From: Chloroflexus aurantiacus J-10-fl
GTDB lineage: Bacteria > Chloroflexota > Chloroflexia > Chloroflexales > Chloroflexaceae
NCBI RefSeq assembly: GCF_000018865.1
Contig: NC_010175.1
Coordinates: 4,960,001 to 5,024,000 of the forward strand
DNA: 64,000 nt
Direction of reading: 5' to 3'
A model generated the notes under the pieces. That model was not told the origin of the DNA. It worked only from the letters and a program-made list of their open reading frames with translations, and did no database searches. Below, in pieces: positions 5,628 through 30,147 of the stretch; position 1 is the first letter of the stretch, and each line of letters starts with the position of its first letter. The position numbers and the translations under genes were made by a program.

Positions 5628-5649
5628 GGGGCACGGCATGCCGTGCCCC
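5628..5649. repeat. 22-bp perfect palindrome
   Basis: GGGGCACGGCA directly abuts its reverse complement TGCCGTGCCCC. It belongs to the GGGGC...GCCCC palindrome class also seen at 17597, 29718 and the ends of both G-rich arrays. Confidence 0.8.
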
Positions 5650-17462: not shown

Positions 17463-17929
17463 TCGGTACGTGTACGGTAATGGACTTCATGACGGCATCG
17501 GCTATGTGAATTATATCACACTCTCTACAAGGTTGCAGAAATCACCAACAGCCGTTCTTGAGCGTATACAGGCGGTATTGCTGCCGACGATGAGGAGTAG
17601 GGGCAAATACGCATTTGCCCCTACGTTCGTTGGTGCGCACCATCGTGTGCCATTTGCGAATATCAGCAGTGCGCTCTATGCATTAGTGTCACACGACCAA
17701 AGCTACACTACCAGATTTGACCTGATGCCTGCGCCGCCCCTACCGATGATTTGCCAACACTTCGTATGTTTTGGTATGCTGGGGAAAGCCGACTGGATCG
17801 CAGTTTCCATCCTCCGTTCGCTTGCAGGCGACCCTTCAACGGTGTACTGCACTGCAAATGACGAGACATAGCAGGCAGAGTCAGGCAGATCAATGCTCAA
17901 AGCGTATCATTCTACCTTCTAACCGACAG
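17463..17929. other. gene-free spacer with palindrome
   Basis: Holds a 28-bp inverted repeat at 17597-17624 (GTAGGGGCAAAT / ATTTGCCCCTAC, 4-nt loop) of the dispersed GTAGGGGC family. The ORFs across it lack ribosome sites and are not credible. Confidence 0.6.
17597..17624. repeat. GTAGGGGC-family palindrome
   Basis: 12-bp perfect arms GTAGGGGCAAAT and ATTTGCCCCTAC around ACGC. Same outer ends as the hairpins at 29718-29743 and at the ends of the G-rich arrays, but a different inner part. Confidence 0.8.
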
Positions 17930-20236: not shown

Positions 20237-20263
20237 GTGCGTATATTTCATGTGAGGTTGGCT

Positions 20264-20863
20264 GTGGCCCAACCGATTGATGCAGCGCATCTGTCACGAT
20301 TAAGTGATGAATCTCTGATGGAGCTGGTTGCTGCCGGTGATAGTACAGCGCTCGCTCACCTGTACGACCGCCATTCGCGGGCAGTGTATGGTCTGGCCCT
20401 GAGAATGCTGGCCACCGCTGAAGCGGCTGAAGAGGTTGTACAGGAGACGTTCTGGCGTGTCTGGAAACGAGCGGCCACCTTTCAACGCAACAGTGCGTTT
20501 TTGCCGTGGATGTTCGGTATTGCCCGTAACCTGTGCATTGATGAATTGCGTCGACGTCAGGCCCGACCGGTGGCTGCCAGTAACAATGAAGATATTTTGA
20601 CAACGCTTACTGACCAGCAACAGAACGTTGAGCAATCAACCATTGAAACCGAACGTCGGCGGCTGATCACCAGCGCTCTGGCCGATTTACCGACCGACCA
20701 GCGTGAAGTTATTGAGCTGGCCTATTTTGGTGGCTTATCGCAGCGAGAAATCGCCGAGTATTTACAGAGTCCGCTTGGCACAATTAAGACGAGAATTCGT
20801 TTAGGTTTACAGAAGTTGAAACAGACCTTGCTTCACTACGGCATCGATGCAAACGACCACTAG
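20264..20863 (+). CDS. ECF sigma factor, SigK-like
   Basis: 199 residues from GTG 20264, 6-7 nt after GAGG; GTG 20237 would add nine residues without a ribosome site. Directs RNA polymerase to stress or envelope promoters. Sigma region 2: LYDRHSRAVYGLALRMLATA, then AEEVVQETFWRVWKRA and LPWMFGIARNLCIDELRRRQ. Region 4: LPTDQREVIELAYFGGLSQR and LGTIKTRIRLGLQKL, a helix-turn-helix that reads the -35. A linker of about 40 residues lies between. The next gene, 12 nt on, is its RskA-type anti-sigma factor, so the pair is presumably co-expressed with activity held by the membrane partner. The signal is unknown. Confidence 0.92.
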   Translation: MAQPIDAAHLSRLSDESLMELVAAGDSTALAHLYDRHSRAVYGLALRMLATAEAAEEVVQETFWRVWKRAATFQRNSAFLPWMFGIARNLCIDELRRRQARPVAASNNEDILTTLTDQQQNVEQSTIETERRRLITSALADLPTDQREVIELAYFGGLSQREIAEYLQSPLGTIKTRIRLGLQKLKQTLLHYGIDANDH

Positions 20864-20875
20864 AAGAGTAGCTGC

Positions 20876-21760
20876 ATGCACGACTCTGACCGCGAACATG
20901 AACAATCTCTCCTCGCCGCAGCCGCGCTCGGCAGCCTCGATCCCACCGATCTGGCAGCGTTCGAGCAGGTGCTGGCCAGCTCACCCGCTGCCCGATCTGA
21001 ATTCGAGCAGTTGCGCGAGGTAGTTGCTTTGTTGCCTTATGCAGCACCACCGGTTACGCCACCGGACCATGTCCGCACCCGCCTGATGGAGCGTATCGCC
21101 GCCGACCAGGCTGCACAGGCGCCGCCGCGACAGACACGGTCTTCGCGCCGCATTAGCACCGGCTGGGTAACACCACTGATACTGGTTGGTCTAACCCTGG
21201 TGATTACGTTGCTGGGCAGTCTGACGTTGTCATTACAACAACAGGTGATAGCCTTAAACGAGACAAATCAGCAACTACTGGCTGCGGTGAATAACCTCCA
21301 GGCAGCGGTGAATGCCAGCGAAGAACGACAATCTCAAATGACGGCACAACTGGCAACTTACGAGCAGCAGTTGGCACGTTTGAACGATCAGGTTGCCCAG
21401 GAGCGCTTATTGGTTTCGTTCGTGAGCGCACCTGGGGTGGCGACCCGTGAGCTGCTGCCAACACGGGCCGACGTTACGGCTCGCGGTGAGATGTACATGT
21501 ATCCAGGTGAAACGCAGGCGGTGGTTGTGTTCAGCGGATTGCCGGCGCTCGAACCAGATCGGGTCTACCGCTTCTGGCTCAGTGATGGCACACAACGCAT
21601 TGCTGCCGGCTCGTTTCAAGTCGATGCCACCGGTCTGGCGACGTTGATGGTTACGGCACCGCGCGAGGTGAATGCTTACACCGAAGTGATGTTGACGGTA
21701 GAGCCTGCTACCGGTACTGCACCGGGTGATGTCGAGGTTATTCTCACCGGGACGTTGTGA
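20876..21760 (+). CDS. RskA-family anti-sigma factor
   Basis: 294 residues. The N-terminal cytosolic anti-sigma domain (LLAAAALGSLDPTDLAAFEQ, about residues 10-75) lacks a zinc His/Cys motif, as in RskA. One membrane helix follows at about 100-120 (TPLILVGLTLVITLLGSLTL), then a coiled coil of about 50 residues (ALNETNQQLLAAVNNLQAAV region), then the extracytoplasmic RskA beta domain (GEMYMYPGETQAVVVFSGLP, then VYRFWLSDGTQRIAAGSFQV). RskA proteins hold their sigma factor and release it through regulated proteolysis. The gene is 12 nt behind the sigma gene and is followed by a clear terminator, so the two form a complete operon. Confidence 0.9.
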   Translation: MHDSDREHEQSLLAAAALGSLDPTDLAAFEQVLASSPAARSEFEQLREVVALLPYAAPPVTPPDHVRTRLMERIAADQAAQAPPRQTRSSRRISTGWVTPLILVGLTLVITLLGSLTLSLQQQVIALNETNQQLLAAVNNLQAAVNASEERQSQMTAQLATYEQQLARLNDQVAQERLLVSFVSAPGVATRELLPTRADVTARGEMYMYPGETQAVVVFSGLPALEPDRVYRFWLSDGTQRIAAGSFQVDATGLATLMVTAPREVNAYTEVMLTVEPATGTAPGDVEVILTGTL

Positions 21761-21834: not shown

Positions 21835-22008
21835 TTTATAACCAGGATGTGATGTTTTCAAAAAACATCTACTAAAAGTTAGCTCATTCACTCCCGACAG
21901 ACTCTATGAATGTGGCGAGCATCCACAGCATCCCCGTAACCAGCAGGGTCAACGGCGTACCACGTGCCGGATCGTGAGTACGGCTGCTGCGGCAGCATGG
22001 CTGCCGCA

Positions 22009-23671
22009 CTGGAGTTTGGCTGTTTCGTGGACGCAGGAGGGATGACGAGAGTCGGGAGCAGATGCTGGTGACTCTCGGTTGCGTGCTGATGGATGGGTCA
22101 TTTGGGGGGTAGAAGGCCGCTAGACCCCCCTACGCCCTGGCCGCCGCGCGTGCGGCGTTGGTCAGGGCGATGATCGTGTGCTCTTTGTTCAGCCAATCGT
22201 CCGTGGACGTCGTCCAAAGCGACCGACATGCCGCCGTGCCCCACAGGGCGGCCCGGTCGCTGCGCCACAACGTGGTGAACCGCCACCGCTGTGCGCCCCG
22301 CCACCAGCGTTCTGGTCGGGTGGGACCACGGATCCATCCCCACGCACGGTAGCCGGCCAGCACCAGCACTGCGTAGACCCAGCCACGCCACGGCCCACTG
22401 ACCACCGCTGACCGCTTGTTCCAGCACTGGTTCTGACCGACCCCAACGCCGGCGTTCAGCTCGCGATGAGCGACCTCCCGTTCCCAGCGTTGCCAGACCC
22501 AGGCCAGGATCTGCCCGACGGACAGGGGTACCACCCAGTCCGTGTCCGTTTGCACCGCCGTGACCAGCGAGCAGGCCGGCTCACGCCGTCCCAGGCGCGG
22601 ACGGCGCTTCCCTCGCTGCCAGGTCGCACCACCAACCACGATCAGGACGACCGCGTGGTCAGGCACCCCGTCGCACAGGTATGGCCCGTGGACCTGATAG
22701 CGCATCGCAATCCGTCGCCCCCGCACCAGCACCCGTTTCCGCCGGAACAGCTCCTGCTTGGTGAGCCAGCTCGCGGGCTGCGGAGCACGCTTCCCGTATC
22801 GCCGCGGCCGACCGCGGCCCGTCGGCGGCGGCGGCAGCAGCGACCGACAGCGATTGCGGGCCGTGCGCACGATCAGTGCCACCTGCGCCGGCACCCCGCG
22901 CCACATCCCCACGGTGGCACACGCGCCATCAGCCAGCACCACCACCCACTGCGCAGCGCGGCCGGCCGCCGTGAGCTGCTGCCGCACCCACCTGATGCAC
23001 GCCAATCCACCCTCCCATTCGTTCGCCGATGGCACGTCTGCCGGCGCGGCCTTGGGCGGAAACGCCGGCAGGAAGCGCAGGGGGATCGCCCGGGTAAACC
23101 CCTTCACCCGTGGTGGCAGCCAGGCGCAGTGGACAAACCGTTGGGCACGATGGATACCGCGCGTGACCACGGCCGTGCGGAGTGCGTGCAACCAACTTGT
23201 GCCGGGAAGGGTCAGGCTGCTCCGTGGAATCTGCGTGCTATCGATCCCGATCACATACGGATCGTGCTTGGAACACCGCTTCAGTGTCTCGCGGCAGAGA
23301 CACGCGGTCAGGGTCGCTTCGTCAAACCGTGACCGACTGAACAGGCGGTAGAACGCCGTCCCGTCCGTGTCGTGCATGCCGAGTGCCAGCAGCACCTGGG
23401 TGACGGTGTGTCTGGCAAACGCAAACAGCTCGCCAACCAGCAGCGCCACGGCCCGCCGGAAGGTCCGCTCCTGACGAAACGCCGGGCGGTGGGCCGTGAT
23501 AATCTGCATCAGGGTGGCGAGTAACATCGAGACAGGGGCCTGAGGGGGAGGGGCCTGCTTCCTGGGCATGGGTGCCTCCTGGCTGCTCGTCGTGGTCATA
23601 ACCGTATAGGATACCATATACCATGCTGGTACCCGCATGGCACGTCCCTCCCAGAAAGGGCCAAAGTCCAG
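22009..23671 (-). mobile_element. 1,663-bp insertion sequence with imperfect inverted repeats
   Basis: The left end begins CTGGAGTTTGGCTGTTTCGT; the right end, read inward on the minus strand, begins CTGGACTTTGGCCCTTTCTG, with 19 of the first 25 positions matching. Exactly outside both ends lies the same 21-bp sequence (21988-22008 and 23672-23692), the GCGGCAGC-ATG-GCTGCCGC palindrome plus TGC/GCA-type edges. Removing the element and one copy restores a continuous 286-type repeat unit. It encodes a single DDE transposase. The long palindromic duplication may reflect target choice, and the family assignment (IS4/IS701-like DDE) is tentative. Confidence 0.85.
22130..23569 (-). CDS. DDE transposase
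   Basis: 479 residues from the ATG at 23569, which follows CAGGAGG at 5-6 nt; the longer frame upstream (MECGSHAAAL...) only translates the IS end and the palindrome. Catalyses cut-and-paste transposition of the surrounding element. Acidic triad candidates: Asp110 in YVIGIDSTQIP, Asp214 in WVVVLADGACAT, and Glu365 in RWEREVAHRELNAGVG. The basic, Arg-rich RNRCRSLLPPPP and GRGRPRRYGKR segments between the second Asp and the Glu fit the beta-strand insertion of IS4-superfamily enzymes. Full length and uninterrupted, so possibly active. The end LNKEHTIIALTNAARAAARA is small-residue-rich. Confidence 0.88.
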   Translation of the reverse strand: MPRKQAPPPQAPVSMLLATLMQIITAHRPAFRQERTFRRAVALLVGELFAFARHTVTQVLLALGMHDTDGTAFYRLFSRSRFDEATLTACLCRETLKRCSKHDPYVIGIDSTQIPRSSLTLPGTSWLHALRTAVVTRGIHRAQRFVHCAWLPPRVKGFTRAIPLRFLPAFPPKAAPADVPSANEWEGGLACIRWVRQQLTAAGRAAQWVVVLADGACATVGMWRGVPAQVALIVRTARNRCRSLLPPPPTGRGRPRRYGKRAPQPASWLTKQELFRRKRVLVRGRRIAMRYQVHGPYLCDGVPDHAVVLIVVGGATWQRGKRRPRLGRREPACSLVTAVQTDTDWVVPLSVGQILAWVWQRWEREVAHRELNAGVGVGQNQCWNKRSAVVSGPWRGWVYAVLVLAGYRAWGWIRGPTRPERWWRGAQRWRFTTLWRSDRAALWGTAACRSLWTTSTDDWLNKEHTIIALTNAARAAARA

Positions 23672-25717
23672 TGCGGCAGCATGGCTGCCGCACTCCAAAC
23701 GCTACGGCACGCGCATGACAAGCGGGTAAAGCAACCGATCCGGCGGGTGATTTGCATCGGAGATGGTCACCGGCGCTGCTCGCCGCCATACCGGCGTGCC
23801 GTGAGCGGGATGAGCTGTCGTTGGCGATTGGCAAATGTTCATGCGCCTCGGCAACCGTCTGGTAGCACAACGGCACAGCTTTTGTGCAATAAGGTCTATG
23901 AAGTTAGCTCATTCATTCCCGACAGACTCTATGAATGTGACGAGCATCCACAGCATCCCCGTGGTCAGCAGGGTCAACGGCGTACCACGTGCCGGATCGT
24001 GAGCACGGCTGCTGCGGCAGCATGGCTGCCGCACTCCACACCGCGCCACACGCGCATGCCGCGCGGGCAAGGCAACCAATCCAAAAAGTGATGGCGCTAG
24101 AGATGAGCAGTAGCTCTCCTCGCTGTCATACCGACAGCCTGGGAGCAGGATATGCCGGCGTTGGCGATTGGTAAGCGTTCATGCGCCTGTGCGATAGTCG
24201 GGTAACACGACCGCACAGCTTTTATGAGATAAGTTCTAGCATCCCCGTGGTCAGCAGGGTCAACGGCGTACCACGTGCCGGATCGTGAGCACGGCTGCTG
24301 CGGCAGCATGGCTGCCGCACTCCACACCGCGCCACACGCGCATGCCGCGCGGACAAGGCAACCAATCCAAAAAGTGATGGCGCTAGAGATGGGCAGTAGC
24401 CCTCCTCGCTGTCATACCGGCAGCCTGGGAGCAGGATATGCCGGCGTTGGCGATTGGTAAGCGTTCATGCACCTGTGCGATAGTCGGGTAACACGACCGC
24501 ACAGCTTTTATGAGATAAGTTCTAGCATCCCCGTAACCAGCAGGGTCAACGGCGTACCACGTGCCGGATCGTGAGCACGGCTGCTGCGGCAGCATGGCTG
24601 CCGCACTCCACACCGCGCCACACGCGCATGCCGCGCGGGCAAGGCAACCAATCCAAAAAGTGATGGCGCTAGAGATGGGCAGTAGCCCTCCTCGCTGTCA
24701 TACCGGCAGCCTGGGAGCAGGATATGCCGGCGTTGGCGATTGGTAAGCGTTCATGCACCTGTGCGATAGTCGGGTAACACGACCGCACAGCTTTTATGAG
24801 ATAAGTTCTAGCATCCCCGTAACCAGCAGGGTCAACGGCGTACCACGTGCCGGATCGTGAGCACGGCTGCTGCGGCAGCATGGCTGCCGCACTCCACACC
24901 GCGCCACACGCGCATGCCGCGCGGGCAAGGCAACCAATCCAAAAAGTGATGGCGCTAGAGATGAGCAGTAGCTCTCCTCGCTGTCATACCGGCAGCCTGG
25001 GAGCAGGATATGCCGGCGTTGGCGATTGGTAAGCGTTCATGCGCCTGTGCGATAGTCGGGTAACACGACCGCACAGCTTTTATGAGATAAGTTCTAGCAT
25101 CCCCGTAACCAGCAGGGTCAACGGCGTACCACGTGCCGGATCGTGAGCACGGCTGCTGCGGCAGCATGGCTGCCGCACTCCACACCGCGCCACACGCGCA
25201 TGCCGCGCGGACAAGGCAACCAATCCAAAAAGTGATGGCGCTAGAGATGGGCAGTAGCCCTCCTCGCTGTCATACCGGCAGCCTGGGAGCAGGATATGCC
25301 GGCGTTGGCGATTGGTAAGCGTTCATGCACCTGTGCGATAGTCGGGTAACACGACCGCACAGCTTTTATGAGATAAGTTCTAGCATCCCCGTAACCAGCA
25401 GGGTCAACGGCGTACCACGTGCCGGATCGTGAGCACGGCTGCTGCGGCAGCATGGCTGCCGCACTCCACACCGCGCCACACGCGCATGCCGCGCGGGCAA
25501 GGCAACCAATCCAAAAAGTGATGGCGCTAGAGATGGGCGATAGCCCTCCTCGCTGTCATACCGGCAGCCTGGGAGCAGGATATGCTGGCGTTGGCGATTG
25601 GTAAGCGTTCATACGCCTGAGCGATAGTCGGGTAACACGACCGTACAGCTTTTATGAGATAAGTTCTCGATGAACCGCTAACAACTCCAGCATTGCTGCC
25701 GGGCAAAATATGACATC

Positions 25718-29717: not shown

Positions 29718-29743
29718 TAGGGGCGCACGGTCGTGCGCCCCTA
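29718..29743. repeat. TAGGGGC-family hairpin
   Basis: TAGGGGCGCACG, spacer GT, CGTGCGCCCCTA: 12-bp perfect arms. A half copy (GTAGGGGCGCACGG) also stands at about 5923-5936. Confidence 0.8.
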
Positions 29744-29787: not shown

Positions 29788-30147
29788 GGGGCGGGTTCTG
29801 TAGGGGCGGGTTCTGTAGGGGCGGATTTCTATAGGGGCGGGTTTCTATAGGGGCGGGTTTCTATAGGGGCGGGTTTCTATAGGGGCGGGTTTCTATAGGG
29901 GCGGGTTTCTATAGGGGCGGGTTTCTATAGGGGCGGGTTTCTATAGGGGCGGGTTTCTATAGGGGCGGGTTTCTATAGGGGCGGGTTTCTATAGGGGCGG
30001 GTTTCTATAGGGGCGGGTTTCTATAGGGGCGGGTTTCTATAGGGGCGGGTTTCTATAGGGGCGGGTTTCTATAGGGGCGGGTTTCTATAGGGGCGGGTTT
30101 CTATAGGGGCGGGTTTCTATAGGGGCGGGTTCAAAACCCGCCCCTAC
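29788..30147. repeat. 16-bp G-rich minisatellite, 18 exact copies
   Basis: Two 15-bp units GGGGCGGGTTCTGTA (29788-29817), one variant GGGGCGGATTTCTATA (29818-29833), then 18 identical copies of GGGGCGGGTTTCTATA (29834-30121), ending in GGGGCGGGTT-CAA-AACCCGCCCC and TAC. The ends match the array at 3698-3793. Perfect identity of 18 units implies recent expansion. Confidence 0.92.

Follow-up and report, generated by a model that had tools for sequence, protein, structure and literature searches.

An IS701-like insertion sequence of Chloroflexus aurantiacus that probably targets hairpin-forming palindromes and duplicates them whole

The 64,000-nucleotide stretch of the Chloroflexus aurantiacus J-10-fl genome analysed here (the window) contains an insertion sequence (IS) with the same 21-bp palindrome on both sides, which raises the question of how the palindrome came to be there twice. 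The preliminary description of this DNA noted that IS4/IS701-like elements usually make short duplications, in line with the exactly 4 bp described for IS701 (PMC2266710), and it offered two options: a family that makes long duplications, or an element that targets hairpins, with the duplication arising from processing of the palindrome. From comparisons of sequence, we think it highly probable that the IS, which is of the IS701-like DDE type, targets hairpin-forming palindromes of whatever sequence and duplicates them whole.

At both ends of the IS we found, in agreement with the preliminary description, identical copies of TGCGGCAGCATGGCTGCCGCA, a perfect 21-bp palindrome in which 9-bp arms enclose the 3-nt loop ATG (Table 1). 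When the IS and one palindrome are deleted, an ordinary repeat unit is restored, as had been claimed: 286/356 alignment columns are identical to the neighbouring tandem unit, and the palindrome region aligns without a gap. Sister repeat units in the C. aurantiacus genome carry a single palindrome and no IS. The repeat units and the IS have no match in seven other Chloroflexus species, where the neighbouring gene is present, so these species offer no orthologous empty site. There are 82 exact copies of TGCGGCAGCATGGCTGCCGCA in the 5.26-Mb genome (5,258,541 bp, single contig) and 0 in the backwards control.

The palindrome-bearing repeat is approximately 335 bp long (window positions 23900–24240, with tandem units to 25463), has a tandem spacing of 286 bp in the window and is present as approximately 35 diverged, dispersed copies in the genome. 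Immediately to the left of the repeat array are a sigma-factor-like and then an anti-sigma-like gene (20237–21760; named by eye), and the anti-sigma-like gene is matched in 7/7 other Chloroflexus genomes searched. A second palindrome type, (GTA)GGGGC...GCCCC(TAC), is present in the window without an IS at 5628–5649, 17597–17624, 29718–29743 and 30120–30146.

Table 1. Features of the insertion sequence and the surrounding repeat units (window positions)
Feature	Position	Strand	Remarks
Insertion sequence	22009–23671	– (transposase strand)	1663 bp; ends common to relatives; 92%-identical second full copy
Transposase gene	22130–23569	–	479 aa (MPRKQAPP...); DDE_5 / IS701-like; Pfam PF13546, NF049999, Tn5-type fold (predicted)
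Left terminal inverted repeat	22009–22020	+	CTGGAGTTTGGC
Right terminal inverted repeat	23660–23671	+	GCCAAAGTCCAG
Duplicated target palindrome, left copy	21988–22008	.	TGCGGCAGCATGGCTGCCGCA; directly adjoins IS end 22009
Duplicated target palindrome, right copy	23672–23692	.	TGCGGCAGCATGGCTGCCGCA; identical to 21988–22008; adjoins IS end 23671
Interrupted repeat unit, left part	21861–21987	+	aligns with unit around 24013–24033
Interrupted repeat unit, right part	23693–23900	+	aligns with unit around 24013–24033
Unoccupied palindrome, next repeat unit	24013–24033	.	one palindrome per unit, no IS
Further unoccupied palindromes	starts 24299, 24585, 24871, 25157, 25443	.	one per unit, no IS

The transposase encoded by the IS matches the Pfam DDE_5 model (PF13546) at 128.8 bits (cut-off 27) and the NCBIfam IS701 model (NF049999) at 100.9 bits, which is below the cut-off of 170. 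NF049999 is the best named match for all 16 transposases that we scanned; the sole models matched are DDE_5, the IS701-type model and NF041680, and none of the 16 matches an IS1182 model. An alignment of the transposases shows full or near-full conservation of D110, D214 and E365. The tyrosine of the YREK motif is missing: R361 and E365 are present, position 358 is V or L, and the consensus K is at 372, where the window copy has N. An AlphaFold2 model of the transposase has modest confidence (mean pLDDT 61, pTM 0.66), and its top Foldseek hits are to Tn5 transposase (E 4e-9) and the inhibitor of that enzyme, with E values between 4e-9 and 2e-4. As modelled, the transposase has the same RNase-H-like DDE fold as Tn5 transposase, the criterion by which we place it in the IS4 superfamily. 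We do not file the IS as a member of IS701, because the 4-bp duplication that defines IS701 is not found.

A second full copy of the IS (copy B; 2047967–2049629) is flanked by TGCGGCAGCCATGCTGCCGCC and TGCGGCAGCCATGCTGCCGCA, which are the window palindrome read on the opposite strand, apart from a change in one end base, and it lies in a different repeat unit. The pattern of palindromic flanks also fits most of the decayed copies in the C. aurantiacus genome. One internally deleted copy (3881566–3882399) lies between two copies of the palindrome whose loops are oriented oppositely. Another (3936317–3937127; L003, L009, L058) has two different flanking palindromes, GGGCGACGCATGCGTCGCCC, which belongs to another palindrome family, and CGCGGCAGCATGGCTGCCGC, an arrangement expected from recombination between two insertions. 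At the fragment near 234737, there is a degenerate palindrome at the surviving end; at the flank of the fragment at 3551806, we saw no palindrome.

A profile search with the transposase returned 27 loci, mostly in Chloroflexota and also in Armatimonadota (Fimbriimonadia) and Acidobacteriota. Ten source genomes were then searched whole, which added further copies of the IS, and a search of viral contigs and plasmids found no relatives. We examined 16 intact copies in which both ends and both flanks are readable (two full copies in C. aurantiacus, seven in Herpetosiphonaceae, five in Thermomicrobiales and two in Fimbriimonadia), and in all four lineages we found a whole palindrome on both sides of the IS (16/16 copies). 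In 14 copies, including copy B with its one different end base, the palindromes are direct repeats, and in the remaining two the loop is reversed. For the most part, the duplicated palindromes have unrelated sequences; their arms measure 8–20 bp and their loops 0–4 nt. The duplication ranges from 20 to 46 bp and is equal to the palindrome length or 1–2 nt longer at the edges (duplication/palindrome lengths in bp: 21/21, 21/19–21, 35/33, 38/35, 30/28, 32/32, 33/33, 34/34, 26/26, 22/22, 20–22/20, 25/25, 22/22, 46/44, 27/27 and 30/28). Palindromes with arms of at least 9 bp start no more than 2 bp away from 0.09% of positions drawn at random from the DNA flanking the 16 copies, so their exact abutment on both sides of the IS is not due to chance. 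Three copies cut by a contig end (L075, L076 and L078) have a perfect or near-perfect palindrome on the readable right side; on the left of L076, nine bases at the contig end mismatch its right palindrome. In copy B and in L077, one of the two junctions is irregular by a single base. We are nearly certain that duplication of the whole palindrome is a real and general pattern of the window clade.

When the 3.6-Mb genome of L073 is searched for its 33-bp palindrome with 3 mismatches allowed, the sole matches are the two IS flanks, and in an exact search the Fimbriimonadia palindrome is found in its genome only at IS flanks. These two targets are therefore doubled single-copy sites, as opposed to copies from a repeat family. 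Because the palindromes differ, the duplication tracks their length and the two palindromes tested are found solely at IS flanks, the target is a structure and not a sequence. The preliminary description had suggested that the window palindrome could be a preferred landing site and that other copies might always sit in GGCAGC-ATG-GCTGCC. The palindrome is indeed a very common hairpin in C. aurantiacus and is doubled at copy B too, but the preference is for structure, and the three other lineages have unrelated doubled palindromes. As for its two options, hairpin targeting with processing of the palindrome is supported by the length tracking and the differing sequences, whereas a family that merely makes long duplications is not favoured. 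Short duplications at unrelated targets, which it took as the sign of a double palindrome that was there beforehand, were seen neither in copy B nor in the three other lineages, and the Anaerolineales relatives described below are without a clear duplication.

A fixed long stagger in duplex DNA (about 21 bp), with palindromes merely preferred, agrees with the window copy taken alone, in which 21 bp corresponds to two helical turns. However, the duplications of 20 to 46 bp track the palindrome copy by copy, and they vary even among near-identical copies of one element in KatS3mg057 (26 to 38 bp); this length range contradicts a 21-bp stagger, which we regard as very improbable. We find it scarcely credible that the IS entered between two adjacent palindromes that already existed, or that the palindromes belong to the ends of the IS. 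The abundance of the palindrome in C. aurantiacus (82 exact copies) would suit such an origin, but both versions are contradicted: sister units hold only one palindrome, the flanking palindromes vary between copies of one element while the IS ends are constant, and in two other genomes the palindromes tested exist only at IS flanks.

In the mechanism that we propose for the window clade, the palindrome would extrude as a cruciform and the transposase would join both transposon 3' ends at (or no more than 1–2 nt from) the 5' foot of the top- and bottom-strand hairpins. The two attacked points would be a whole palindrome apart in the duplex and neighbours at the four-way junction. Each flank would keep one palindrome strand, which gap repair would then make double-stranded, so that the whole palindrome, loop included, would be present on both sides. 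The two copies with a reversed loop are L069, whose two palindromes have the loops CGC and GCG, and L080, whose loops are TT and AA. Plain gap repair does not predict these reversed loops, and a further step is needed: a hairpin strand might be released and rejoined, the template might switch between hairpins, or there might be later conversion between the inverted copies. For L080, a sequence elsewhere in the genome is an unlikely source of conversion, because the exact form of its palindrome is found only at that IS. The reversed loops also hint at handling of the hairpin at the level of single strands, which favours a target that is single-stranded DNA in replication, on the lagging-strand template, and not a duplex cruciform, with the two copies arising via replication and repair. 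Hairpins form readily on lagging-strand templates, and this too speaks for a single-stranded target; however, DDE transfer of two ends to one strand does not alone yield two palindromes on an intact duplex, and we consider this explanation unlikely.

In Anaerolineales members (L059–L066, L083, L086 and L106), we found neither an abutting palindrome nor a clear duplication of any length where both flanks are readable. Several of these copies have on one side an A-tract that ends in CC or CGC and on the other a T-tract that starts with GG or GCG, and such flanks look like intrinsic terminators minus the hairpin. At L066, the left flank is ACAAAAAACC, followed by the IS and then the right flank GGTGTTTGTTTATATCGCCTCAC; the counterparts in the sister genome G404 are ACAAAAAAAGCCTCCCGGCTACCTACCGGGAGGC and GGCCCCGCCAGCGACTGGCAGGGGCCTTTTTTATCGCCTCAC, respectively, and in another sister genome, G406, a terminator hairpin also precedes the flank orthologous to the right flank of L066. 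Because the terminator hairpins of the orthologous flanks are missing beside the L066 IS, the Anaerolineales branch seems to delete the target hairpin. The G404 counterpart is not a clean empty site, because its two flanks are on different contigs. In a permutation test, the two flanks of the same Anaerolineales copy showed no pair-specific inverted similarity (p 0.43) and looked A/T-tract-like whatever the pairing, and so the claim of hairpin loss comes from the orthologous flanks of one copy (L066). When we searched with the joined flanks of L059, each flank was found elsewhere and no uninterrupted site was present among the matches listed. Just to the left of the L059 IS (about 1285–1370) is a repeat of approximately 90–100 bp that is found again in numerous genomes from the same family; it has the hairpin CCGAAGGT...ACCTTCGG and resembles a miniature repeat element.

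On the transposase tree, the duplication and deletion outcomes need one change, with a weak dividing branch (73/0; 88% of bootstrap trees) and an unsure root, and one IS family may hold both outcomes. The chances seem about even that this is a hairpin-foot family in which the window clade duplicates the hairpin (5'-foot attack) and the Anaerolineales delete it (3'-foot or in-stem attack), with reversed loops recording the release or flipping of hairpin strands inside the transposition complex. Such a family would be a natural experiment, in which comparing members that duplicate the hairpin with members that delete it could reveal the transposase residues that choose which foot is attacked. 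For the host genome, hairpins would be landing sites that are doubled at every landing of such an element.

Three outcomes have been drawn for DDE ends that attack a cruciform: attack at the 3' foot deletes the hairpin (the IS1272 model), attack at the 5' foot gives two copies of the whole stem-loop, and with attack next to the loop it is the loop that is duplicated (Wan et al., PMC5678879). Duplication of the whole stem-loop is 'pathway b', a hypothetical alternative for IS1272, which is unrelated to the window element (PMC5678879). The flanks of every intact copy in the window clade match what 5'-foot attack is predicted to leave. Among open-licence papers on IS or transposon targeting of palindromes, cruciforms and hairpins, we found no report of whole-hairpin duplication, and the only precedent found for structure-directed hairpin insertion was IS1272/TnSha1, with deletion. 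The window clade would thus provide natural examples of an outcome that was predicted and is unreported in the literature searched, duplication of the entire stem-loop.

IS1272 and TnSha1 (IS1182 family) undergo stem-loop replacing transposition, in which the hairpin is deleted and no duplication is made (PMC5678879, PMC4923244). Like these elements, the window clade uses hairpin-forming inverted repeats as targets without a sequence consensus and with insertion points at or in the stem. In contrast to IS1272, it duplicates the hairpin, and the models that match its transposases are DDE_5 and those of IS701 type, with none for IS1182; the Anaerolineales members resemble IS1272 in outcome, with the hairpin apparently deleted. 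The IS701 family (IS4 superfamily) has the motif R-(3)-E-(6)-K, with the Y of YREK mostly missing, and the terminal consensus ---YACT-Y (PMC2266710). The window transposase is like this family in its best named model match and its YREK motif without tyrosine; compared with the consensus, the ends of L059-type relatives are CTTGACTTTGGC (ACT in place, G for Y) and the window end has CTGGAGT. Unlike the 4-bp duplication of IS701, the duplications in the 16 window-clade copies are 20–46 bp. IS1549 and IS1634 are also IS4-related with long, variable duplications (8–514 bp), which as of 2008 still lacked a mechanistic model (PMC2266710), and hairpin duplication is a possible reason for such duplications in some IS4-related elements; unlike those of the window clade, the IS1549 and IS1634 duplications are not described as palindromes in PMC2266710, a difference of description alone. 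ISPpu9 and other REP-targeting IS land in repetitive extragenic palindromes (PMC8450116), and the window clade likewise inserts in palindromes, which may be extragenic. As described there, REP-targeting IS use one repeated REP sequence, whereas the window clade uses unrelated, partly single-copy palindromes and doubles them whole.
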